A stretch of 64,000 nt of DNA from Planctomycetota bacterium. Lineage in GTDB: Bacteria; Planctomycetota; Planctomycetia; Gemmatales; Gemmataceae. Position numbers and translations under genes: made by a program. Under the pieces are notes generated by a model, which saw only the letters and a list, made by a program, of their open reading frames with translations, was not told the origin of the DNA and searched no databases. Shown here piece by piece: positions 22,028 through 62,023 of this stretch. The stretch covers positions 1-64,000 of the forward strand of contig JACPPF010000162.1 of NCBI GenBank assembly GCA_016191165.1, written 5' to 3'. Positions within the stretch are counted from its first letter, which is position 1, and every line of letters begins with the position of its first letter.

Positions 22028-23035
22028 ATGAAACCGCCCTGCGTCTGGTTCAACAAGCAACTGAGCAACACCTGGGAGTTGATGCCCCTGCTGGCCGAGG
22101 CGCGCCGCGCGGGGGAATTCCGCATGGTGTGCAGCCATCCGCGTCTGGAGGTCGCGCGTCGGTTCGATTGTGATCGTCAGGAACGCGAACCTGCCCGCCT
22201 CGGCGATGACGAGTACGTTCGCTTTTGCCTTGATTTTGCCAGCCGGCACGGCGTAAGATTTTTCTTTCCAGGGCACAAGGTTTTGCCCATCGTTCAGGCC
22301 GCGGCGCATTTTGAGGCTATTGGTACGCGCGTGGTTGCGTCTGCCAAGGCGAGCACGCTGGCGTTGGTGCGTAGCAAGGCCAAGATCTATGCCGCGCTCG
22401 CTGGCGAACCCTGGATTCCCGATCACACCATCGTGAGGGATCTATCCGGTTTTGATGCAGCGTTGAAACAACTGCGGGCACGCCATCGGATCATTTGTTG
22501 CAAGCCGGATACGTCGGTGTTCGGCCTCGGCTTTCATATTCTCCACGATGGCGAGACCCCCGTGACCTCGCATGATCCCGCCCTGCTCATCGAACTTGAG
22601 GCTGCCCGCCGCCGCCTGGTGGAGCGCCGAAGTTCCCGCGATCTCATGCTGATGCAGTACCTCCCTGGCCCGGAACGCAGCGTCGATTGCCTGGCCCGCG
22701 GCGGGGAACTCCTGCGCTGCGTCATTCGCAGCAAGATGAACGACGGTCAGATGCTCGAAGAGAATCCTGAAATTGAATCGATCGTCCGCCAGCTGACAGC
22801 ACGCTTTGGTTTGAACAATCTTTTCAACGTGCAATTCCGGGACGCCGGCGGGCGTTCCTACCTTTTGGAAATCAACGCGCGCATGTCCGGCGGGTTGCCA
22901 TTTTCCTGCCAGTCGGGTTTTGCGTTTCCGTTGTGGGCGATCCGGCTCGCGCTGGGAAAGGTGACGCCTGAAGCGATGCCCTATCCTCGGGCCGGGGTCT
23001 GGGTTCCGCAAACCGCGGCGGCGAGGTCGGTATGA
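22028..23035 (+). CDS. ATP-grasp enzyme of a Ter-type biosynthetic operon
   Basis: The protein has 335 residues. VRSKAKIYAALAGEPWIPDHTIV, RHRIICCKPDTSVFGLGFHIL, LMLMQYLPGPERSVDCLARGG and YLLEINARMSGGL fit an ATP-grasp fold; the last carries the metal-binding E-x-N. Its neighbours (PRTase-TRSP, HAD, PRTase-PELOTA, lyase) identify it as the ATPgrasp_Ter type described with tellurite-resistance (Ter) gene clusters. There it is predicted to ligate an amino acid or similar group to a nucleoside-like compound. The stop codon overlaps the next start (ATGA). Confidence 0.75.
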   Translation: MKPPCVWFNKQLSNTWELMPLLAEARRAGEFRMVCSHPRLEVARRFDCDRQEREPARLGDDEYVRFCLDFASRHGVRFFFPGHKVLPIVQAAAHFEAIGTRVVASAKASTLALVRSKAKIYAALAGEPWIPDHTIVRDLSGFDAALKQLRARHRIICCKPDTSVFGLGFHILHDGETPVTSHDPALLIELEAARRRLVERRSSRDLMLMQYLPGPERSVDCLARGGELLRCVIRSKMNDGQMLEENPEIESIVRQLTARFGLNNLFNVQFRDAGGRSYLLEINARMSGGLPFSCQSGFAFPLWAIRLALGKVTPEAMPYPRAGVWVPQTAAARSV

Positions 23036-24162
23036 AAGACGCCTTCGTCTTTATCCCCCTTCGCTCCGGCACGCTGCGCCTGTCCATCGAAAGGGCCGAC
23101 CTGCCCCTCGCCGACCTGTGCGGCTTCGGCAGTCGGCGCAGTCGCAAGCGCGGCTTCGTCTTCGTCAGCAAGGTGCTTGGAAAACACATTCCCGTGCGGC
23201 CGGAGCGCATGGCGGAGATTCACACGCGGTTGGCCGACAAGTTGGGCGATCCCCCTGGCCCGATCGTGCTGATCGCGCTGGCGGAGACCGCGACGGCGCT
23301 TGGTCACGGCATGGCCGAGGCCTGGCTTCGCCGCACCGGGCGCGACGATCTGCTCTTCCTGCACACGACCCGCTATCGGCTCAATCAACCCGTCGCGCTG
23401 AACTTCGAGGAAGCGCACAGCCATGCGACGCGGCATCTCCTTTACCGCCCGGTGCTGCGCGAACACGCCGACCACTTTCATGCTGCGCGGACGCTGGTTC
23501 TCGTCGATGACGAGATCAGCACCGGGCGTACGCTCGGCAATCTGGCGATTGCCTACCATGCCTTGAACCCGCGCCTGGCCAACGTGCATCTGACGTGCAT
23601 CACCGACTGGCTGGGCGACGAACGCCGCGCGGAGTTCGTGCAGCGGATCGGCGTTCCTGTCGCTTTCACGAACTTGCTTCAGGGAGATTTCAACTTTCAA
23701 GGGAATCTCGACTTTGACCCTGGCCCCATTCCCAACGTGACCGGTTCCACGGAGCGCAAGGACGCCATCTTGGCTCGCAATCATGGCCGACTTGGCGTGT
23801 GCGGTCTGGCGCGGTATGACCTGGATTCCATGATCGACGCGGCGCGTCTCGGCCCGGGTGAACGCATCCTGGTCCTGGGCACAGGTGAATTCTCGTATCC
23901 GCCCTTCCTGCTGGCGCGGCGACTCGAAGCGCTGGGCTGCGACGTGCATTTCCAGGCCACCACGCGCTCGCCGCTTTGCCTGGACGGCGACATCTCCAGC
24001 GTGCTTGAGTTTCCCGACAATTACCACGACGACATCCCGAATTACGTTTACAACGTGGCCGATCGATGTTATGACCGGATCATGATCGGTTACGAAACCG
24101 CACCGCTGCCGACGGGGCACCAGCTCGCTCAGCGGCAAGGCGGCCATGCGATCTTCTTCTGA
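23032..24162 (+). CDS. Phosphoribosyltransferase with TRSP domain (Ter-type operon)
   Basis: The protein has 376 residues. The PRPP loop LVLVDDEISTGRTLGN (about 157-172) identifies a type I phosphoribosyltransferase. The C-terminal part holds TTRSPLCLDGDI (about 310), the hallmark of the TRSP domain, next to GERILVLGTGEFSYPPFLLA. This PRTase_2 plus TRSP architecture is, to my knowledge, specific for the predicted biosynthetic module of Ter stress systems. The base or base-like acceptor is unknown. It is coupled to the ATP-grasp gene by ATGA. Confidence 0.8.
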   Translation: MKDAFVFIPLRSGTLRLSIERADLPLADLCGFGSRRSRKRGFVFVSKVLGKHIPVRPERMAEIHTRLADKLGDPPGPIVLIALAETATALGHGMAEAWLRRTGRDDLLFLHTTRYRLNQPVALNFEEAHSHATRHLLYRPVLREHADHFHAARTLVLVDDEISTGRTLGNLAIAYHALNPRLANVHLTCITDWLGDERRAEFVQRIGVPVAFTNLLQGDFNFQGNLDFDPGPIPNVTGSTERKDAILARNHGRLGVCGLARYDLDSMIDAARLGPGERILVLGTGEFSYPPFLLARRLEALGCDVHFQATTRSPLCLDGDISSVLEFPDNYHDDIPNYVYNVADRCYDRIMIGYETAPLPTGHQLAQRQGGHAIFF

Positions 24163-24210
24163 CGAACGCGCACGCCTTTTCATATAACGAAAACTCAAGG
24201 AATCATTTTC

Positions 24211-24228
24211 CGCGGGGCCGGCCCCGCG
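24211..24228. repeat. Perfect 18-base GC palindrome inside the Ter-type operon
   Basis: CGCGGGGCCGGCCCCGCG is self-complementary and lies in the only gap (79 bases) of the operon, just before the start of the HAD gene with its site GGGAAGG. It could attenuate or stabilise the message. Confidence 0.45.
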
Positions 24229-24241
24229 CAGGGGAAGGCGA

Positions 24242-24991
24242 ATGCGCACTGTCTTGTTCCTCGACCTTGACGACACGATCTTCCAGACCAGGCCGAAATG
24301 CCCGGGCGACGACGTGTTGCATCCGGTCGCTCACCGTCGCGATGGCACGCCGTTGTCATTCATGACGCCCCGGCAACGCGCCTTTCTGGAGATGTGGCTA
24401 CGCGCCGCGACGGTCATCCCCACGACAGCGCGCAATCTCGACGCTTACTCGCGCGTCGATCTGCCCTTCGAGCATCTGGCAATCCTCGACTTCGGCGGCG
24501 TCGTTCTGCTGGAGGACAAAACGCTGGATGCCGCCTGGGACGCCCAGATTCGCCCGCGGGCGCGCGCCTTCGCCCCCGAGTTGCGCATCCTGCACGCCGC
24601 TGTCGAACGCATCATTGCCCGGCGGCGGCTTGGCGCCTACGCTCGGGTGATCGCTGATTTCGACATGCCGCTCTATGTCGTCGTGAAACATCCCGATGGC
24701 GATTGCGCCCTGCTTGCCGTCATCCACGATGAGCTGCGCGCGAGCGCCGACCTGAGCCGTTGCTTCGTTCATCAAAACGACAATAACCTCTCGCTGGTTC
24801 CCGCGTTCCTCGGCAAGGAACATGCCGTGCGGCATGTCGTTCACCATCGACTCGGCCCGGAACCGGTGTTGACCATCGGCATGGGGGACAGCCTCACCGA
24901 TGCCGGGTTTCTCGACGTGTGCGATTACAGCCTGATGCCGCGGGCGTGCCAGCTCGCCAGACAACGACTTCCAGGTTGCGAGGGCGCATGA
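24242..24991 (+). CDS. HAD-superfamily hydrolase (Ter-type operon)
   Basis: The protein has 249 residues. FLDLDDTIFQ holds the nucleophile and acid Asp of motif I, PTTAR is motif II, FLGKEHAV provides the Lys of motif III and GMGDSLTDAGF motif IV with its acidic pair, so it is probably an active phosphatase. A large cap between motifs II and III fits the Cof/sucrose-phosphate phosphatase group. In Ter biosynthetic operons a HAD enzyme is thought to dephosphorylate the ribose-phosphate intermediate. The stop codon overlaps the next ATG (ATGA at 24988). Confidence 0.75.
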   Translation: MRTVLFLDLDDTIFQTRPKCPGDDVLHPVAHRRDGTPLSFMTPRQRAFLEMWLRAATVIPTTARNLDAYSRVDLPFEHLAILDFGGVVLLEDKTLDAAWDAQIRPRARAFAPELRILHAAVERIIARRRLGAYARVIADFDMPLYVVVKHPDGDCALLAVIHDELRASADLSRCFVHQNDNNLSLVPAFLGKEHAVRHVVHHRLGPEPVLTIGMGDSLTDAGFLDVCDYSLMPRACQLARQRLPGCEGA

Positions 24992-26076
24992 ATTTCAGCG
25001 GCAGCTACGCTCCGGACGATGTGACGTTTTTGCTGAAGCGCGTCCACCTCGCGCCGACCGAGTTGGCCGAGAAGGAGCGCCTGATTCAGTCCGGTGAGCG
25101 ACACTACAGCGAGATGATCGGGATGGAACGTGCGCCGACGCCAGCGTATCTGCGTGTTTTTCACGCGGGCCTGGAGCGCGAGAAAGGCCGCTTTGCGCGC
25201 GACCTGCTCGTGTTGGCGCGCCACATCGCGACAACCCGCCGCGGCCCGATCGTCGTCGTGTCGCTGGCGCGCGCCGGCACACCGGTCGGCGTGCTCGTAC
25301 GGCGAATCTTGCGCCGGATGGACCGGTCCGTCCATCATTACTCCGTCTCGATCATCCGCGACCGCGGTATCGATGAGACGGCGCTTCGCCACCTGCTCGC
25401 CCGGCATTCGGCCGAGGCGATCGTGTTCGTGGACGGCTGGACCGGCAAGGGCGTGATCGCCGGGGAATTGCACGCGGCCGTCACGGCGTTCAACCAGCGC
25501 GAAGGGACGTGCCTCGACGCCGGACTGTATGTCGTCGCCGACCTGTGCGGCGCCGCCGCGTTCGCTGCCAGCGATGAAGACTACCTGATCCCGTCCTGCG
25601 TCCTGGGCGCGACGGTCTCCGGGCTGGTGAGCCGATCGATCTTGAACGACGCAGTCATCGGCCCCGGCGATTTCCACGGCTGCCTGTGGCTGGAAGAACT
25701 GGCGCCGGCGGACCAGTCGCGCTGGTTTGTCGATCAGGTCGCCGCCGAGGTCGAACGCCAGGTCCGCCAGGTCTTGACCGGGCCGCAGGACGTATCGTCA
25801 GACCACCGGTCGCGGTTGCGTGCCAGGAGCGAGACGTTTCTGGCTGACATGCGCATGCGTTTCGGCGTGCGCGACATCCACCACGTCAAGCCTGGCGTGG
25901 GCGAAGCGACGCGCGTTTTGCTGCGGCGCGTGCCGGATCGCCTGCTGCTTCGCGACCCCAGCCGGGCCGACGTCGCCCACCTGCTCCTACTCGCCCGTGA
26001 GAAAAACACGCCGATCGTGATCGACCCGGCCCTGCCCTACACCGCTGCCGCGCTTATCAAGGAGATGGATGGATGA
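24988..26076 (+). CDS. StiP-type phosphoribosyltransferase with PELOTA-like C-terminal domain
   Basis: The protein has 362 residues from the ATG at 24988. The start NFSGSYAPDDVTFLLKRVHL, then IVVVSLARAGTPVGVLVRR, HHYSVSIIRDRGID and IVFVDGWTGKGVI fit the PRTase_1/StiP family. The last region, from about 285 on, (DIHHVKPGVGEATRVLLRRVP, DVAHLLLLAREKNTPIVID) fits a PELOTA-type RNA-binding domain. StiP proteins were once annotated as cysteine proteases. The PRTase interpretation comes from work on Ter systems. It overlaps the genes on both sides by 4 bases, so the three are coupled. Confidence 0.8.
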   Translation: MNFSGSYAPDDVTFLLKRVHLAPTELAEKERLIQSGERHYSEMIGMERAPTPAYLRVFHAGLEREKGRFARDLLVLARHIATTRRGPIVVVSLARAGTPVGVLVRRILRRMDRSVHHYSVSIIRDRGIDETALRHLLARHSAEAIVFVDGWTGKGVIAGELHAAVTAFNQREGTCLDAGLYVVADLCGAAAFAASDEDYLIPSCVLGATVSGLVSRSILNDAVIGPGDFHGCLWLEELAPADQSRWFVDQVAAEVERQVRQVLTGPQDVSSDHRSRLRARSETFLADMRMRFGVRDIHHVKPGVGEATRVLLRRVPDRLLLRDPSRADVAHLLLLAREKNTPIVIDPALPYTAAALIKEMDG

Positions 26077-26987
26077 TCGAGGCCCTGCAACTTGGCGCGT
26101 CCCTTTATGTCCCCGCGACCCGGGCGGACCTGTTGCCCATCGGCAACCGGCGCAGGTATCCGAATCTGCGCTCGGTGATTTTTTGCACGGAGGACGCGAT
26201 CGGTCCGGGGGATGTGCATCAAGCGCTCAGCAACGTGGAGCAAATGCTGCCTCGCCTGGAGCCGTCGGGCTTGATGCGCTTCGTCCGCGTGCGCAACGCC
26301 GTCATGCTGCGCCAGATTTTGCAGATGGACGGCGCGCGCAACCTGACGGGGTTCGTCATTCCCAAGGCGACCCGGCACAACCTGGATGATTATCTTTCGG
26401 CGCTTGCGCCCGACGACCCGTATCAGCTCATGCCGATCCTCGAAACCGCCGAGGTATTCGATCCCGCGGAGATGACGAAACTTCGCGATTTGCTCCTGCG
26501 CGATTCTTGCCGCGGTCGAATTCTTTCCCTGCGTATCGGCGGCAATGACCTGCTTCAGCTTCTGGGTTTGCGCCGGCCGCGCGCCCGGACCATCTACGCC
26601 ACGCCGCTGGGATCGGTCATCGCGCAGCTGGTCACCGTCTTTCGGCCATGCGGATTCAACCTCACCGGGCCAGTATGTGAATGGCTCAAACGCGGTCGGC
26701 TTTTGGCGCGCGAATCGCGCGGTGACGTGGCCCGCGGCTTGTTTGGCAAGAGCGCCATCCATCCCGAGCAGATTGCGGCGATTGAATCCGCGTACCGGGT
26801 CAACGAAAAGGACCTCGAGTCCGCGGAGAGAATTCTCGCGGAAGGGGCCGCACCTGTGTTTCGCCTGCACGATGCCATGTGCGAACCCGCGACTCATCGC
26901 GCCTGGGCGATGCTGCTGCACGAACGCGCCCGTCTGTTTGGAGTTCGCGCCGTCGTCCGCCGCTTCAACGGGCATACAATAGCGTGA
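26073..26987 (+). CDS. CitE/HpcH-like C-C bond lyase (Ter-type operon)
   Basis: The protein has 304 residues. SLYVPATRADLLPIG, VIFCTEDAIGPGD, FVRVRN, GFVIPKA, PILETAEVFD and LRIGGNDLLQ follow the strand-end motifs of the CitE/HpcH/HpaI TIM-barrel family. The acidic pair in CTEDAI and Glu in LETAEVF probably bind metal. Its place as the last gene, overlapping the PRTase-PELOTA gene, matches the lyase of the Ter biosynthetic module. The substrate is unknown. There is no clear terminator after it. Confidence 0.8.
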   Translation: MIEALQLGASLYVPATRADLLPIGNRRRYPNLRSVIFCTEDAIGPGDVHQALSNVEQMLPRLEPSGLMRFVRVRNAVMLRQILQMDGARNLTGFVIPKATRHNLDDYLSALAPDDPYQLMPILETAEVFDPAEMTKLRDLLLRDSCRGRILSLRIGGNDLLQLLGLRRPRARTIYATPLGSVIAQLVTVFRPCGFNLTGPVCEWLKRGRLLARESRGDVARGLFGKSAIHPEQIAAIESAYRVNEKDLESAERILAEGAAPVFRLHDAMCEPATHRAWAMLLHERARLFGVRAVVRRFNGHTIA

Positions 26988-27847: not shown

Positions 27848-28243
27848 ATGATCAGCGGTGAAATCCAGATTCGCGTGCGCTACGCCGAGACCGACCGCAT
27901 GGGGTTACTGCACCATGCCAATTACCTGGTCTACTTTGAGGAGGGCCGCACGGAGTTGCTCCGGCAGCAGGGCCTCACATATCGCGACATGGAGGATCAG
28001 GGATTTTACCTGGTTCTCACGAAGATCCAGGTTCGCTACAAAAGCCCCGCGTATTACGACGATCTGTTGACCCTGCGAACGACGCTCCTGCGGACCACGC
28101 TGGTGAAAATCGAGCACAAGTATGAACTGCTGCGTGCCGGCGTCCTGGTCGCCGAGGCGGAGACCACGCTCGGCTGCGTCGATACCGCCGGCAAGGTGCA
28201 ACCCTTGCCCGACAGTCTGCGTGCCGAACGCGATACCGTTTAG
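27848..28243 (+). CDS. YbgC-type acyl-CoA thioesterase
   Basis: The protein has 131 residues from the ATG at 27848. IQIRVRYAETDRMGLLHHANYLVYFEEGRTELL is a 4HBT hot-dog fold of the YbgC type; the DRMG-HHANY region holds the active Asp and His. YbgC in proteobacteria starts the tol-pal operon (ybgC-tolQ-tolR). Here too it precedes ExbB/TolQ- and ExbD/TolR-like genes with a 54-base gap, which supports a Tol-like assignment of the cluster. Confidence 0.8.
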   Translation: MISGEIQIRVRYAETDRMGLLHHANYLVYFEEGRTELLRQQGLTYRDMEDQGFYLVLTKIQVRYKSPAYYDDLLTLRTTLLRTTLVKIEHKYELLRAGVLVAEAETTLGCVDTAGKVQPLPDSLRAERDTV

Positions 28244-28297
28244 CCGCGACGCCGGTGGTTGCGCGAGGTGACAGGTCAAACCAATCCGAGATATCCC

Positions 28298-28807
28298 ATG
28301 CTCCGGCAACTTCTCATACGCGGGCTGCTTCCTCTGCTGTTGTGCGTCCCGCCGTTTCTGGCGGCCGCCCTCGTGTTGATGTGCATCCCGCACAAGGCGC
28401 TGGCCTTCTTCATCGATCACTTCGGCATGATGGAAGCCCTGATCCTCGGCGGCGGCGCGGCGCTTTTTTGCGTGCAGATGTTCCTGTGCTGGCGTTCCCT
28501 GCGCTGGCGCGGCACCGGCTTTGACGACGGCGGTGATCGCTGGCTTTCCAATCTCGCCCAGGCCGCGGAATGGTTCCCCATGCTCGGGCTGATCGGCACC
28601 GTCGCCGGGATTCTTGAAGCCTTCGCGGCCCACGGCAGCGGCGGGGCGATTCAGCCGCGCGACATCGCTCCCGCCATCACCGCCACCGGCGCCGGGCTGT
28701 TCATGGCCCTGGTCAACATCATGCCCACCTGGGTCGTGTTGCTCGGTCGAGATATGATCCTGCTCCTGTCAGGCACGTCCGCCCAACCGCCGGGGGATGC
28801 GCCATGA
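28298..28807 (+). CDS. ExbB/TolQ/MotA-like proton channel protein
   Basis: The protein has 169 residues from the ATG at 28298. Helices at about 8-30, 43-63, 88-108 and 124-150 are predicted. WFPMLGLIGTVAGILEAF and ITATGAGLFMALVNIMPT match the two conserved pore helices of ExbB/TolQ, with the Thr residues in LGLIGT and in TATGAG that line the proton path. The protein is shorter than E. coli TolQ (230). It is coupled to the next gene by ATGA overlap. It should form an inner-membrane motor with the ExbD-like proteins. Confidence 0.75.
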   Translation: MLRQLLIRGLLPLLLCVPPFLAAALVLMCIPHKALAFFIDHFGMMEALILGGGAALFCVQMFLCWRSLRWRGTGFDDGGDRWLSNLAQAAEWFPMLGLIGTVAGILEAFAAHGSGGAIQPRDIAPAITATGAGLFMALVNIMPTWVVLLGRDMILLLSGTSAQPPGDAP

Positions 28808-29379
28808 TCCACATGCCGCGGCGTAACGTCACGCGGTTTTTCATTCCGCTCATCGACGTGCTGATCCTGCTCTTCTGCATCTTCCTGCTGATGGAGTTCG
28901 ACTCCGCGCGCGAGGTCGACAAACAGGTCGAAATCGTCTCGGAACAATCCGAATCGCTTGACCTGATCCAGGCTGAACTGGAACAACGCACGACGGAGCT
29001 GCGACAATTCGAGGAGGATCGGCCCAAACTCATCGAGCTGGCCGAGCTACGGGCCGAACTCGAACGACTGCGAAAAGCAAGCCAGCGGAATTTGCAGCAG
29101 CAGGCGTTCGTCCGCATCATCGATGTCAATGGCAAGGACGGTTCGATATCCTTCTTCGACGATCGCCGGCCCAAGGATCCGATTGTCCCCATTGTGGGCC
29201 CGAAGTCCGCGCAGGCGTTGATCGACCGGCACAAGGAGGAGGCGAAGGGCCGACAGGTTTACTACTATTTCCTTTACCCACGCACCGGCCGGCGTTTTCC
29301 CACGACGGCCGGGCAAGAACAAGATTACCGAACCTGGTTCAAGGGAGTCGCCAACTCCCTGGTGAAGGTGGGGTCATGA
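28804..29379 (+). CDS. ExbD/TolR-like protein with coiled-coil periplasmic region
   Basis: The protein has 191 residues. RRNVTRFFIPLIDVLILLF is the N-terminal cytoplasmic tail and single helix of ExbD/TolR, with the conserved membrane Asp (residue about 18) that takes protons. It is followed by a coiled coil (about 38-95, QAELEQRTTELRQFEEDR) and a small C-terminal domain without known match. The usual ExbD periplasmic fold is not visible here but may be in the next gene. Overlaps both neighbours (ATGA). Confidence 0.7.
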   Translation: MIHMPRRNVTRFFIPLIDVLILLFCIFLLMEFDSAREVDKQVEIVSEQSESLDLIQAELEQRTTELRQFEEDRPKLIELAELRAELERLRKASQRNLQQQAFVRIIDVNGKDGSISFFDDRRPKDPIVPIVGPKSAQALIDRHKEEAKGRQVYYYFLYPRTGRRFPTTAGQEQDYRTWFKGVANSLVKVGS

Positions 29380-30026
29380 TGTTTGCCCAGACCTTTTTGG
29401 ACATGGGAATCCCGGACGGTGTGCTGCACCTCGTGCGCATCATCGCCGCGGTCGGCGGGGCCGTCGTCGGCTGGTTTGTCTTTGATCCGCTCACCCGTCT
29501 ACTCTATCGCGTTTCCTTCAAGGGCGCGACTCCCACGACGCTTTTGCTCGGCTCCAAGGCGACAGGGGCGGCCACGCTTTCTCTGCTCATCTATTTCTTT
29601 ATCCCCCTGGGCGGCAGCGGGGGCCTTGGCTTTGGCGCCGGTCCCGGCGGCGGCGCCGGCAAAGGACCAGGCCAGGGCGGCGACAGTAAAGTTGCCCGCG
29701 ATGGCAAAGGCGACAAGAAAATCAACGACGCCAAAAAAAACGATGCCACGCCGTCAACCAAGAAAATCGAATCCGTCGAGATCGAAATCATCGGCCGCGA
29801 CGATGACGACGGCAGCGAGCACTATTACCTTCTCAAACGCAAGAAGCCGGCGCTGACCGCCGCTGAGCTGGCTGACTACTTCAAGAAAAATCGCGAACAC
29901 ATCGAGGTCATTCCGGTGTTAACGCGCAACAGCATTGGTGAGGCGCAGGAAAATAGTCCGATCAGTCAACTCATTGCGTTGACCAAGAAATATGACGTCA
30001 AGCGCCTGGCCACCAAGGGACCGTGA
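29376..30026 (+). CDS. Membrane protein with Gly-rich linker and ExbD/TolR-like C-terminal domain
   Basis: The protein has 216 residues. Two helices (about 18-40 and 62-84) are followed by a Gly-rich and Lys/Asp-rich linker (residues 85-128). The C-terminal part (VEIEIIGRDDDDG, LTAAELADYFKKNREHIEVIP, QLIALTKKYDVKRLA) follows the pattern of the ExbD periplasmic domain: strand, helix after (S/T)xxEL, strand, helix, strand. This is my inference from pattern only. Gene order suggests that it works together with the ExbB- and ExbD-like proteins. Overlaps the ExbD-like gene by 4 bases. Confidence 0.6.
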   Translation: MMFAQTFLDMGIPDGVLHLVRIIAAVGGAVVGWFVFDPLTRLLYRVSFKGATPTTLLLGSKATGAATLSLLIYFFIPLGGSGGLGFGAGPGGGAGKGPGQGGDSKVARDGKGDKKINDAKKNDATPSTKKIESVEIEIIGRDDDDGSEHYYLLKRKKPALTAAELADYFKKNREHIEVIPVLTRNSIGEAQENSPISQLIALTKKYDVKRLATKGP

Positions 30027-30073
30027 CGCGGTCGCCTGCCACGCCGCAAGCGGGTTGACGGTAATGTGAAAAA

Positions 30074-31630
30074 ATGGCATCTCCCCGCCTATTGCTGTTC
30101 GGCACCCCGGGCGCCGGCAAGACCGCCTTGCTCGGCGCCCTGGCTCAGGCCGCGCCGGCGCTCCCGGCCGACGACCTTGCCGAGCTGCGAACAAACACGT
30201 ACGACGATCAGCTCTCCCCGACCGAAAAGACCCAGACCTACAACCTGCGCCTTCAAGAAAAGGGGTCAGACCCCTTTTCCGCGGTGGCGGTGCTCGATTG
30301 CGGGGGCCAGGCCGCCCTGGACATGCTTCGCGCCAGCGAGCCGTTCACCAAAAAACAGGCGATGCACAAGCCCGTCCTGGCCGCGGACGTTGTCCTCCTC
30401 ACCGTCGATGCCTCGCTGTCCCCAAAACAACTCGGCGAGGAGTTCCAGCAGTTCGGCCGCTGGCTTCGTGGGCTGCATCACCTGCGCGGGCGGCGCGTCG
30501 AGGTCGGCGATATGCCGGTCTTTCTCGTCCTGACCAAATGCGACCTGTTGGCCAAGAAGGACGACACCTTCGCGAAATGGACCGCGCGCATCGACGAGGC
30601 CAAACGCCGGGTGGAAGAGAAATTTCGCGAATACCTGGACGAACAAGCCCACGGCTTTGGCACGGTCAAGCTGCTCGTGTGGGCCACGGCGATCAAAAGG
30701 CCCGCACTGGCGGATCGTTCATCCACGGCGCTGGAGCCCTACGGCGTCGCGGAGCTATTTCATCAAGGCTTGCGCGAAGCGCACGCCTTTCAAACCCGGC
30801 GACACACGGCGCAGGTTCGGTTACAGAACCTATTCGCTGGCCTGCTCGGTTCAATCGCGCTGCTGGCGTTGATCGTTGCGTTCCTCTATGAATTCCAGCC
30901 CTCTCCCCGCGGTGAAAGGCTGGAGGAGAAGGCCCGTGCCCTGCTGCCGCGCCCCGACGCGAGCACCGTTGGGCGGTTGCAGGGCGGACTCAAGAAACTG
31001 CAAGAACGCGAGGCCAAACTCGCCCAGGTGCAAAACGATGCCGCGTTCGAGGGACTGCCGGAGGAAACGCAGGAGGCGATCAACCATGCCCACGACGAGG
31101 TTGCCAGGTACGTGCAGCTATACCGTGAGTCGCAACATGCGCTCAAGTTGCCCTACCTGGCGAAGGACGAGAAGGAATTTGACGCACTGGAAAAGACAGC
31201 AAAGGCCTTTGTCGTCCCGGATGATTGGAAGGACACCCTTCTGGGCCGCCGCGCTGACAGGTGTCACAAGGAATTCACAGCCGTGAGGCTGGCCGCCAGG
31301 GCGGAGCAAGCCTGGCTACGGGCCGAGACGCTGGCGAACTACACGCTGACCGACGCGTCTGACAGGCTATACCGAGATCTTCGTAATGAGAAAAAATACG
31401 AACCCGCCGCGCTCGACGCCTGGAGGGTTCTGAAAATGAAGTACGACGCGCAAATCCACAAGCGTCCAAGCCCGCCACGGCGGGATTCGATCCCGGGCGT
31501 GAGTCGGTTCAAGTACGAGAATCTTGGCCTGTTTGCGGAAATAAAAAAGGAGCGCTCCAAATGGCGCAAATCGCAGGAAGCACTTCAGGAGCGGGCGGAA
31601 TTCATCGAAGAGCGAATCCCGCGGAAATAA
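30074..31630 (+). CDS. Membrane-anchored P-loop GTPase of a Tol-like cluster
   Basis: The protein has 518 residues. LLFGTPGAGKTALLGAL is the P-loop (G1), LDCGGQ the G3 motif (DxxG), LTKCDLL the G4 motif (TKxD) and VWATAI a G5-like motif, so this is a Ras/SRPRB-like GTPase, apparently complete. A single helix (about 255-277, LLGSIALLALIVAFLYEF) separates it from a 240-residue coiled-coil and helical region that would lie in the periplasm. Bases 30257-30279, a palindrome, encode KGSDPF within the G domain. It starts 47 bases after the ExbD-like membrane protein, on the same strand. Confidence 0.7.
   Translation: MASPRLLLFGTPGAGKTALLGALAQAAPALPADDLAELRTNTYDDQLSPTEKTQTYNLRLQEKGSDPFSAVAVLDCGGQAALDMLRASEPFTKKQAMHKPVLAADVVLLTVDASLSPKQLGEEFQQFGRWLRGLHHLRGRRVEVGDMPVFLVLTKCDLLAKKDDTFAKWTARIDEAKRRVEEKFREYLDEQAHGFGTVKLLVWATAIKRPALADRSSTALEPYGVAELFHQGLREAHAFQTRRHTAQVRLQNLFAGLLGSIALLALIVAFLYEFQPSPRGERLEEKARALLPRPDASTVGRLQGGLKKLQEREAKLAQVQNDAAFEGLPEETQEAINHAHDEVARYVQLYRESQHALKLPYLAKDEKEFDALEKTAKAFVVPDDWKDTLLGRRADRCHKEFTAVRLAARAEQAWLRAETLANYTLTDASDRLYRDLRNEKKYEPAALDAWRVLKMKYDAQIHKRPSPPRRDSIPGVSRFKYENLGLFAEIKKERSKWRKSQEALQERAEFIEERIPRK
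30257..30279. repeat. Palindrome inside the GTPase gene
   Basis: GAAAAGGGGTC and GACCCCTTTTC form a perfect 11-base stem with a single A in the loop. In frame it encodes EKGSDPFS between the switch region and the strand leading to DCGG. AAAAGGGGTCAGACCCC is a well-known dispersed bacterial repeat. Confidence 0.55.
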
Positions 31631-59508: not shown

Positions 59509-60363
59509 TTACTCCCACGTGAACGGCTGGTTGTCGTTCGGCTGGAGGGCATAATTCCACGTATTGGAATTGATGCTCGCGCTGATGCCGCGGACCGTGC
59601 CGTCCATGATCAGGAGCTGCATAGTGGCATGCGCGCTGTTCGGATAGTACGGATGGGCCTGGGTCGTGGTCGCCGGAACCTGTGGCATGTAGGCGCCGAA
59701 GACGCCATAGTGGTGAATCCACTGATGGTACATGCCCCACTGGGAGAAAGCCGTCGGGTGGATCGCCATGTTGCTCCAAGTGTAGGACTGGAAGTTCTGG
59801 AACCGTTCGACGATGCCAATCGTGTTGGACGAGCCATCGGGAATGTTGCCGACGTTGTACATGCCGCGCGTGATGTTTTGACCGTTGTTCGAGTTGTAGA
59901 CGTTGTTGGAACCGAACATGTAGGTCGTGCAGGAATAGCTGGTGGTGAACCAGTTGTTCCACATGCTGTGGCCATCGGCACTGGTCGGGTCGGACGGGCA
60001 AATCAAGGCCGGCACCACGACGTTATGGTTGTTGTTGCCCCAGCCATCCGTACCCGCACCGCGGCGATACAGGGCGTCCTGTTCGATGTACGGATACAGC
60101 TGGTAGAAGAACGGCATCCAGTTGTACGGCGAGTTACGGCCGTAATCCAACATCGGCGGCAGTTTTTTGGTGGCGCTGTTGTAATTGTGGAGCGCGACGC
60201 CGAGCTGCTTGAGGTTGTTGGCGCAAGTCGTTCGCGCGGCAGCCTCGCGAACCTTCTGAACGGCGGGCACCAGCAACGCGATCAAGATTGCGATGATGGC
60301 GATGACCACCAGCAACTCGATCAGCGTGAAGCCGGACCTTCTTGGGGAAATCCCTCGGACCAT
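59509..60363 (-). CDS. DUF1559 protein with prepilin-type leader
   Basis: The protein has 284 residues from ATG at 60361-60363 behind AAGGAG with 6-base spacing. [20 protein letters not shown] is a type IV prepilin cleavage and methylation motif with its hydrophobic helix; [21 protein letters not shown] and ICPSDPTS are hallmarks of DUF1559 (SBP_bac_10-like) proteins, which are among the most numerous planctomycete paralogues. [12 protein letters not shown] is the usual end (DGSVR...). Likely a pseudopilin-like surface protein exported after leader cleavage by a prepilin peptidase. Nearly identical to the next gene. Confidence 0.88.
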
Positions 60364-60653
60364 GGTGAACTCCTTGACAAAGGAAAATAAGTCAACCCGA
60401 ACATCGGGTCGGTTGAAGCTTTCGTAAGAATTGTAGCCAATAATCAAAAAACCCGATGGCGCAATCGGGCCGCTGATAAAAGCCTATCGTCGCCTTCGCC
60501 GGAAATCAACCACAAACTTGGGTTGCGAACGAAATGTAATAAATCAAAATGTTGATTTAACTTGATTTTCATAATTGCCATTCGAGCCGGATGGTGGAAG
60601 TGCATGCTGAATCGGCCTGTTCGACGCAATGCCGTGCGTAGGTGAGGACTTAA

Positions 60654-60721
60654 CCAGCCCCCAGCGCAACCTGGGGGGTTTTTGGAGGCTGCTCAACCCC
60701 CACGCTTGCGCGTGGGGCTGG
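60654..60721. repeat. Twin-hairpin dispersed repeat, copy 2
   Basis: CCAGCCCCCAGCGCAACC and CCCCCACGCTTGCGCGTGGGG repeat the pattern at 27710-27773. The first hairpin is imperfect here. It lies in the 420-base gap between the two DUF1559 genes, which holds no gene. Confidence 0.65.
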
Positions 60722-60783
60722 TGTCGCTCGGGTTGACGAACGGTTTCCTGTCCGTGGCTAGGTAACTGCCGGAAAAAACCCCG

Positions 60784-61638
60784 TTATTCCCAAACAAAAG
60801 GCTGGTTGTCGTTTGGATTGAGGGCATAATTCCAGGTGTTGGAATTGATGCTCGCACTGATACCGCGGACCGTGCCGTCCATGATCAGGAGTTGCATGGT
60901 GGCGTGGGCGCTGTTCGGATAGTACGGGTGGGCCTGGGTCGTGGTGGCCGGGACTTGCGGCATGTAAGCGCCGAAGATGCCATAGTGGTTGATCCACTGG
61001 TGATACATACCCCAGTAGGAAAAAGACGTTGGGTAAATCGCCAGGTTGCTCCAGGTATAGGACTGGAAGTTCTGGAACCGCTCGACGATGCCGATCGTGT
61101 TGGATGAACCGTCGGGAATGTTGCCAACGTTGTACATGCCGCGGGTGGCATAAAAGCCGGCGTTGGAATTGTAGACGTTGTTGGAACCAAACATCTTCTG
61201 ATTGCTGGCATAGCTGGTCGTGAACCAGTTGTTCCACATGCTGTGGCCATCGGCGCTGGTCGGATCGGACGGGCAGATCAAGGCCGGAACCACGACGTTA
61301 TGGTTGTTGGCGCCCCAGCCGTCCGTGCCGGAACCCCGGCGATACAACGCGTCCTGTTCAATGTACGGATACAGGGAATAATAGAACGGCATCCAGCCGT
61401 AGGGTTGATAACGGCCGTAATCGAGCATCGGCGGCAGGCGCTTGGTCGCGCTGTTGTAGTTGTGCAGCGCCACGCCAAGCTGCTTGAGGTTGTTGGCGCA
61501 GGTCGTTCGCGCGGCTGCCTCGCGAACCTTTTGGACGGCGGGAACCAGCAACGCGATCAGGATTGCGATGATGGCGATCACCACCAGCAATTCGATCAAC
61601 GTGAAGCCGGACCTTCTGGAAGAAGCCCTCTGATACAT
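60784..61638 (-). CDS. DUF1559 protein with prepilin-type leader, paralogue of the previous
   Basis: The protein has 284 residues from ATG at 61636-61638. The earlier ATG (61644) sits directly on the AAAGGAG site, so the second ATG with 6-base spacing is preferred; it gives the same leader length as the paralogue. [20 protein letters not shown], the VQKVREAA block and [12 protein letters not shown] are the same as in 59509-60363. Differences cluster at about 30-80 and at 155-185, where residues around [21 protein letters not shown] differ. The pair is a recent tandem duplicate. Confidence 0.88.
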
Positions 61639-62023
61639 GACCATCTCCTTTACCGAAAAAAAGAAGAAAAGAACTTGCCCGAACATCGAGCCAGTGGAAA
61701 CTCTAGCGCAACAGAAAGAGAATGATAAACATTAAACAGTTCTAATTGATGAGTCAACTCTAACAACTTCGTCGCCAAGTGTCAACAAATTAAGCTGAAA
61801 AAAATAGAAAATTACAAAAAAACTCATCCAGTTGGTCTTGACGGAAAATCCGTCAGCCCAGCACCCACGAATCGGCTGACGATCTGTGTCGCAACCGTTT
61901 ATAAAAAAACAAGTTACGACATCGGAATTTTTATAAATGGCCAGGAGATGACCGGCGGAATATCTATCGCGTCGCCGCCGGAACGGACTTTTTGATTCCG
62001 AAAATGCGTCAGCTGCGGGTAAA

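Follow-up and report, generated by a model that had tools for sequence, protein, structure and literature searches.

The operon analysed here lies at positions 27848-31630 (+) of a 64,000-nt forward-strand stretch of contig JACPPF010000162.1 (GCA_016191165.1; Planctomycetota; Gemmatales; Gemmataceae), the whole of which is hereafter called the window. With a probability of roughly 0.6, its five genes would encode a TolQ/TolR-type envelope motor, driven by protons and specific to Gemmatales, having its own output protein, the membrane-anchored GTPase P5, in place of TolA-TolB-Pal. It is probably a lineage-specific motor of the proton-motive-force type with a built-in, switch-like GTPase. The homologies, the conserved proton-path residues, the conservation of the operon, the lack of TolA/TolB/Pal as judged from family models, the architecture of P5 and the decay of its GTP site are directly supported by the data presented below. 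All five contiguous open reading frames (ORFs), P1 to P5, were confirmed as the consecutive plus-strand genes listed by an earlier, sequence-only reading of this DNA (aa, amino acids; TM, transmembrane helix):

27848..28243 (+), P1: YbgC/FadM-type hotdog acyl-CoA thioesterase, 131 aa (TIGR00051 and 4HBT_2 matches)
28298..28807 (+), P2: TolQ/ExbB-like channel subunit, 169 aa, with about four hydrophobic helices (PF01618 and family profile)
28804..29379 (+), P3: TolR/ExbD/MotB-like axle candidate with one TM, a coiled coil and a C-terminal domain (D18, ExbD matches)
29376..30026 (+), P4: second TolR-type protein with a TM hairpin, a Gly-rich linker and a TolR/ExbD-fold domain (AlphaFold2 model, VIA-align)
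30074..31630 (+), P5: membrane-anchored GTPase, 518 aa (AlphaFold2 model, fold comparison, family alignment)

Three of the genes are joined by two ATGA overlaps, at 28804 (P2/P3) and 29376 (P3/P4), as had been described, and 47 bp separate P4 from P5. The start of P2 was placed at ATG 28298 on family support, instead of the TTG at 28259 given by the mechanical ORF list.

Concerning the channel subunit, P2 matches PF01618 (MotA_ExbB) at 2.1e-9 with 37.7 bits, above the Pfam cut-off of 22.9, and a profile of 24 P2 orthologues retrieves structures of TolQ (6e-5) and of ExbB (0.002-0.005). Residues T101 (28598-28600), T130 (28685-28687) and E91 are invariant in all 24 orthologues; T101 and T130 align with two TolQ motifs, GTV and ATAIGL, at the pore-facing Thr positions of the MotA/TolQ/ExbB family. 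Judged by two profile methods, P2 is thus a predicted member of the MotA/TolQ/ExbB proton-channel family, and the ExbB/TolQ homology first proposed for it holds in profile searches. P1, which matches TIGR00051 at 4.5e-26 and 4HBT_2 at 2.5e-19, is likewise the ybgC-type thioesterase it had been taken for.

P3 and P4 are both of the TolR type but unlike each other. As a single sequence, P3 matches ExbD weakly (0.0065) and the MotB TM at 0.01, and ExbD is matched by 8 of its 25 orthologues (best 9.5e-5). Its single TM carries the proton-binding Asp typical of TolR/ExbD, D18 (28855-28857), which is invariant in the P3 family alignment; after the TM come a coiled coil and a small domain at the C-terminus, in agreement with the ExbD/TolR-like coiled-coil protein of the sequence-only reading. 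As for P4, no match was found at the sequence level, including in a PDB sequence search, and Foldseek alone gave nothing. Its AlphaFold model places a TolR/ExbD-fold domain (~29766-30023) C-terminal to two hydrophobic helices and a Gly-rich linker. When this domain was compared by VIA-align, TolR 5by4 ranked top (Z 8.0, rmsd [root-mean-square deviation] 3.4, 78 residues) and ExbD 8p9r reached Z 7.8 (rmsd 2.4, 71 residues), with unrelated rows at Z 5.4 and lower, a Z of about 8 being at the edge of the range that unrelated folds can reach. The periplasmic TolR/ExbD fold is therefore recovered in the P4 model, where an ExbD-like C-terminus had been suspected. The loop between the two P4 TMs is net positive in 29 of 30 orthologues, so that, following the positive-inside rule, it should be cytoplasmic and the TolR-like domain periplasmic (N-out, C-out). 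Since the orthologue check showed no conserved acidic residue in the P4 TMs, P3 rather than P4 is the candidate for the proton-carrying axle.

The AlphaFold model of P5 (mean predicted local distance difference test score 90.7) comprises a Ras-fold GTPase domain (aa 1-240; Z 18.6 to RagC/RagD, and similar to Arf/Arl), then a long helix, one TM at ~251-272 and a helical part of ~245 residues reaching aa 518, very close to the single membrane helix and 240-residue periplasmic part noted before. The N-terminal GTPase being taken as cytoplasmic, the part after the TM would be periplasmic. A full set of G motifs had been announced: the P-loop GTPGAGKT (10-17), DCGG (75-78) and TKCD (154-157) are present, while switch-I (G2) was not assigned. 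A PDB sequence search with P5 returned P-loop matches only. DO-GTPase2 is matched at E<=0.01 by 21 of 34 P5 orthologues (best 8.9e-7), the P5 of the window reaching 18.2 bits against the DO-GTPase domain for a Pfam cut-off of 27. In most of the family, P5 is ~820-870 residues long and includes an additional region at its C-terminus; the short form (~520) is that of the window's genus and neighbouring genera, which form one clade on the P2-P3 tree. In one genome (G029, locus L045, 7195-9569), the periplasmic part of P5 matches again in the next ORF (profile 298-514), a likely partial duplication. P5 was also compared with IcmF/TssM: the IcmF-related_N matches are below cut-off, extend over a short stretch within the GTPase domain and concern five P5 loci, and the profile comparison is weak. 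About half of the Gemmatales genomes carry IcmF-related proteins of ~500-600 aa, none of them above threshold in the window's genome.

The P1-P2-P3-P4-P5 order was seen in most intact loci among 40 from related genomes, so the loss of gene order in related genomes that would have refuted the sequence-only reading did not occur. Because it recurs in dozens of genomes whose operon proteins are ~15-85% identical, this order is more than chance. Among 73 Gemmatales loci, which include Gemmata sp. IIL30, Zavarzinella formosa, Limnoglobus roseus and many metagenome-assembled genomes, P2 is accompanied by P1 in 63, by P3 in 70, by P4 in 59 and by P5 in 44, contig ends accounting for some of the missing genes; here too, most loci keep the order. 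The P2 profile matches 91 of the 102 Gemmatales genomes and 70 of the 71 good ones, about three of these 70 (family f2) being weak matches to another ExbB-like protein, which leaves the true homologue in ~67/71. Outside Gemmatales, only 5 of 391 sampled genomes of the phylum have a match at E<=1e-10. In many loci lepA and lepB lie upstream of the operon, a housekeeping context that is lost in the window's genome, and no match to P5 was found among 72,556 plasmid records, by which spread on plasmids was rejected. The operon looks old and vertically inherited. At loci L145-L217, the lepB upstream of P1 and adjoining lepA is often duplicated in tandem, with a long middle region.

Gemmata-group planctomycetes have elaborate membranes, and their division does not involve FtsZ. 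Judging from family models, the Gemmatales seem to be without the usual Tol-Pal partners: TolB (PF04052) was found in 0/51 genomes, with controls detected in 3 genomes, Pal (TIGR02802) in 0/51 above cut-off, with one sub-threshold match, and TolA (PF06519) in 0/51, this last model being narrow and detecting only E. coli among the controls. The absence of tolA, tolB and pal claimed for the locus is thereby extended to the order. TonB_C is above cut-off in 4 of the 51 genomes, the window's genome not being one of them. Like Tol-Pal, the operon has the ybgC-tolQ-tolR order, TolQ homology, a TolR-type Asp in the P3 TM and a TolR fold in P4; it differs by its two unlike TolR-type proteins and by a GTPase-TM-periplasmic protein where TolA/TolB/Pal would be.

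Among published systems, the operon is closest to the vWA force transducers of PVC (Planctomycetes, Verrucomicrobia, Chlamydiae) bacteria, arranged as TPR-tolQ-tolR-tolR-vWA with an unlike tolR pair (PMC12204202). Both have a TolQ-like gene and two unlike tolR-like genes followed by a single-TM output protein, whereas P5 combines a Ras-fold GTPase at its N-terminus with a helical part in the periplasm, and ybgC stands in place of TPR. The vWA transducers also carry SHLS/His in their TM, which P5 lacks, and no vWA domain was matched in P5 or its orthologues. In the window's genome, another locus (L227, contig C104, 3707-7760) has a TolQ-like gene whose neighbours encode an FHA protein and a vWA protein anchored by a TM (VWA_2 1.5e-8), reminiscent of these transducers. 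No paper on a planctomycete TolQ/TolR-GTPase operon was found in the literature searched, mostly non-subscription journals.

Related clusters occur in other planctomycetes. In families f46 and f74, P2-like, P3-like and shorter P4-like genes precede a gene for a TM-anchored right-handed beta-helix (NosD-like) protein (L236-L240), and no GTPase gene is present. Aligned by hhalign with the operon, their TolQ parts score 3e-15, their TolR parts 4e-5 and their P4 parts 1e-4, the latter over the C-terminal end only. The likeness between the beta-helix proteins and P5 is one of position in the cluster, homology to the TM-periplasmic part of P5 not being established. A second cluster in genome G013 (L242, contig C7, 7092-12083) encodes, besides TolQ and TolR, two more membrane proteins and a DO-GTPase1 protein with a TM anchor that matches PF19975 at 1.7e-7 and the P5 family at 9e-7 (hhalign). 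Such DO-GTPase paralogue clusters are rare in Gemmatales, and a quick look at the flanks of weak matches showed no motor genes. A similar cluster in genome G063 (L241) ends with a protein without a P-loop. As a whole, the beta-helix clusters, the GTPase of L242 and the published vWA clusters suggest a common, reusable platform of TolQ plus paired TolR-type subunits with an exchangeable output (vWA, beta-helix or GTPase), the fifth gene looking like the exchangeable output slot.

In the proposed mechanism, the P2 channel and the P3 axle, with its proton-binding Asp, would do work using the proton gradient, P4 serving as an accessory periplasmic TolR-fold subunit. P5 would be a cytoplasmic Ras/DO-GTPase-like switch coupled via its one TM helix to the periplasmic part; its nucleotide state would signal to the motor when or where to engage that part, which would then act on the wall or the outer membrane for envelope maintenance. 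We infer that the proteins form a complex, that GTP is the switch and that the load may be the envelope. That a Ras-fold GTPase output subunit spans the inner membrane and that its GTP state gates force or signal into the periplasm, replacing Tol-Pal in most of the order, is held more tentatively, at somewhat below even odds.

Several observations weigh against this motor with a GTPase output. The P-loop is gone in branches g14, g19, g7 and f2, while the TM and periplasmic part of P5 stay, and g22 has a weakly matching P5-like protein, also without a P-loop; in some genomes, e.g. Limnoglobus roseus, P5 is encoded apart from P1-P3; and none of 34 orthologues has a His in the P5 TM core. The last result led to the rejection of P5 as a TolA/TonB-type transducer attached through the SHLS/His motif, so P5 would attach differently. 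The P-loop losses mean that GTP is not needed everywhere, and because the GTP-binding loop has decayed in several branches with the motor retained, the GTPase is probably a regulator rather than the engine. The f2 protein (L066) still has a GPPESDKS sequence and a TQAD motif, suggesting that an ancestral GTPase has decayed. Of the GTP-controlled motor put forward by the sequence-only reading, the link between motor and membrane-anchored GTPase stands and GTP control is plausible; it is not essential in every lineage.

Alternatively, P5 could be an independent envelope factor that merely shares the operon with a plain TolQ/TolR unit driving another, unlinked output. The separation of P4-P5, or of P5, from P1-P3 in several genomes and the lack of the TolA/TonB motor-binding His in P5 agree with this. 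Against it, the P1-P5 order is kept across many genera, f46 and f74 place a different membrane-anchored protein in the same position, and the second TolQ/TolR cluster has its own TM-GTPase; this alternative is judged unlikely. A narrower form of the envelope-motor proposal, in which the operon replaces Tol-Pal in constricting the outer membrane when cells divide or bud without FtsZ, would fit the tol-pal-like ybgC-tolQ-tolR order, the lack of TolA/TolB/Pal in the 51 genomes and the core-gene status; no gene of the operon was identified as a partner binding the outer membrane or peptidoglycan, and this form is considered doubtful.

Two further systems combine such motors with nucleotide-binding proteins. 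In Myxococcus, the TolQ/TolR-like gliding motor AglRQS works with the Ras-like GTPase MglA, a precedent for a gliding-type motor whose GTPase sets assembly or polarity. MglA, however, is separate and soluble, whereas P5 is anchored by a membrane helix fused to a periplasmic part and encoded in an operon with ybgC; nor did the operon show any Glt-like genes, and a gliding role is judged improbable. A defence role, for which a test for defence-island neighbours had been suggested, would place the operon with anti-phage systems like Zorya or with DO-GTPase conflict systems. With Zorya it shares a MotA/MotB-type motor linked to other factors, hence the common theme of motor plus NTPase, and the P5 GTPase is a distant relative of the DO-GTPases described from conflict systems (PF19993/PF19975; PMC7159879), which are often membrane-linked and are matched by P5 orthologues. 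The operon, however, has another gene set without ZorC/ZorD, is not mobile, and is present almost throughout the order in a vertical pattern, with its lepA-lepB neighbourhood and no defence context; the P5 of the window stays under the Pfam cut-off. Searches with PADLOC models gave noise only for P1-P5 (weak P-loop and coiled-coil matches, best 0.005), no GAP1 match was found in the operon, and the P5 motif reads DCGG/DCDG, with no Glu in Walker B. The defence idea was consequently abandoned as very improbable. The envelope motor with P5 as output is thus preferred, and this order-wide core operon offers a concrete, testable candidate for energising or coordinating the Gemmata-group envelope.

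As for the surroundings of the operon, its upstream neighbours in the window's genome are a glutathione peroxidase gene and Ter genes. The Ter biosynthetic module, at 22028-26987 (+) and directly upstream, contains ATPgrasp_Ter, PRTase_2/TRSP, an unassigned ORF with a HAD-like start, StiP/PELOTA and a C-C bond lyase. Further along the window, at 59509-61686 (-), two adjoining genes encode proteins with pseudopilin-type N-termini.

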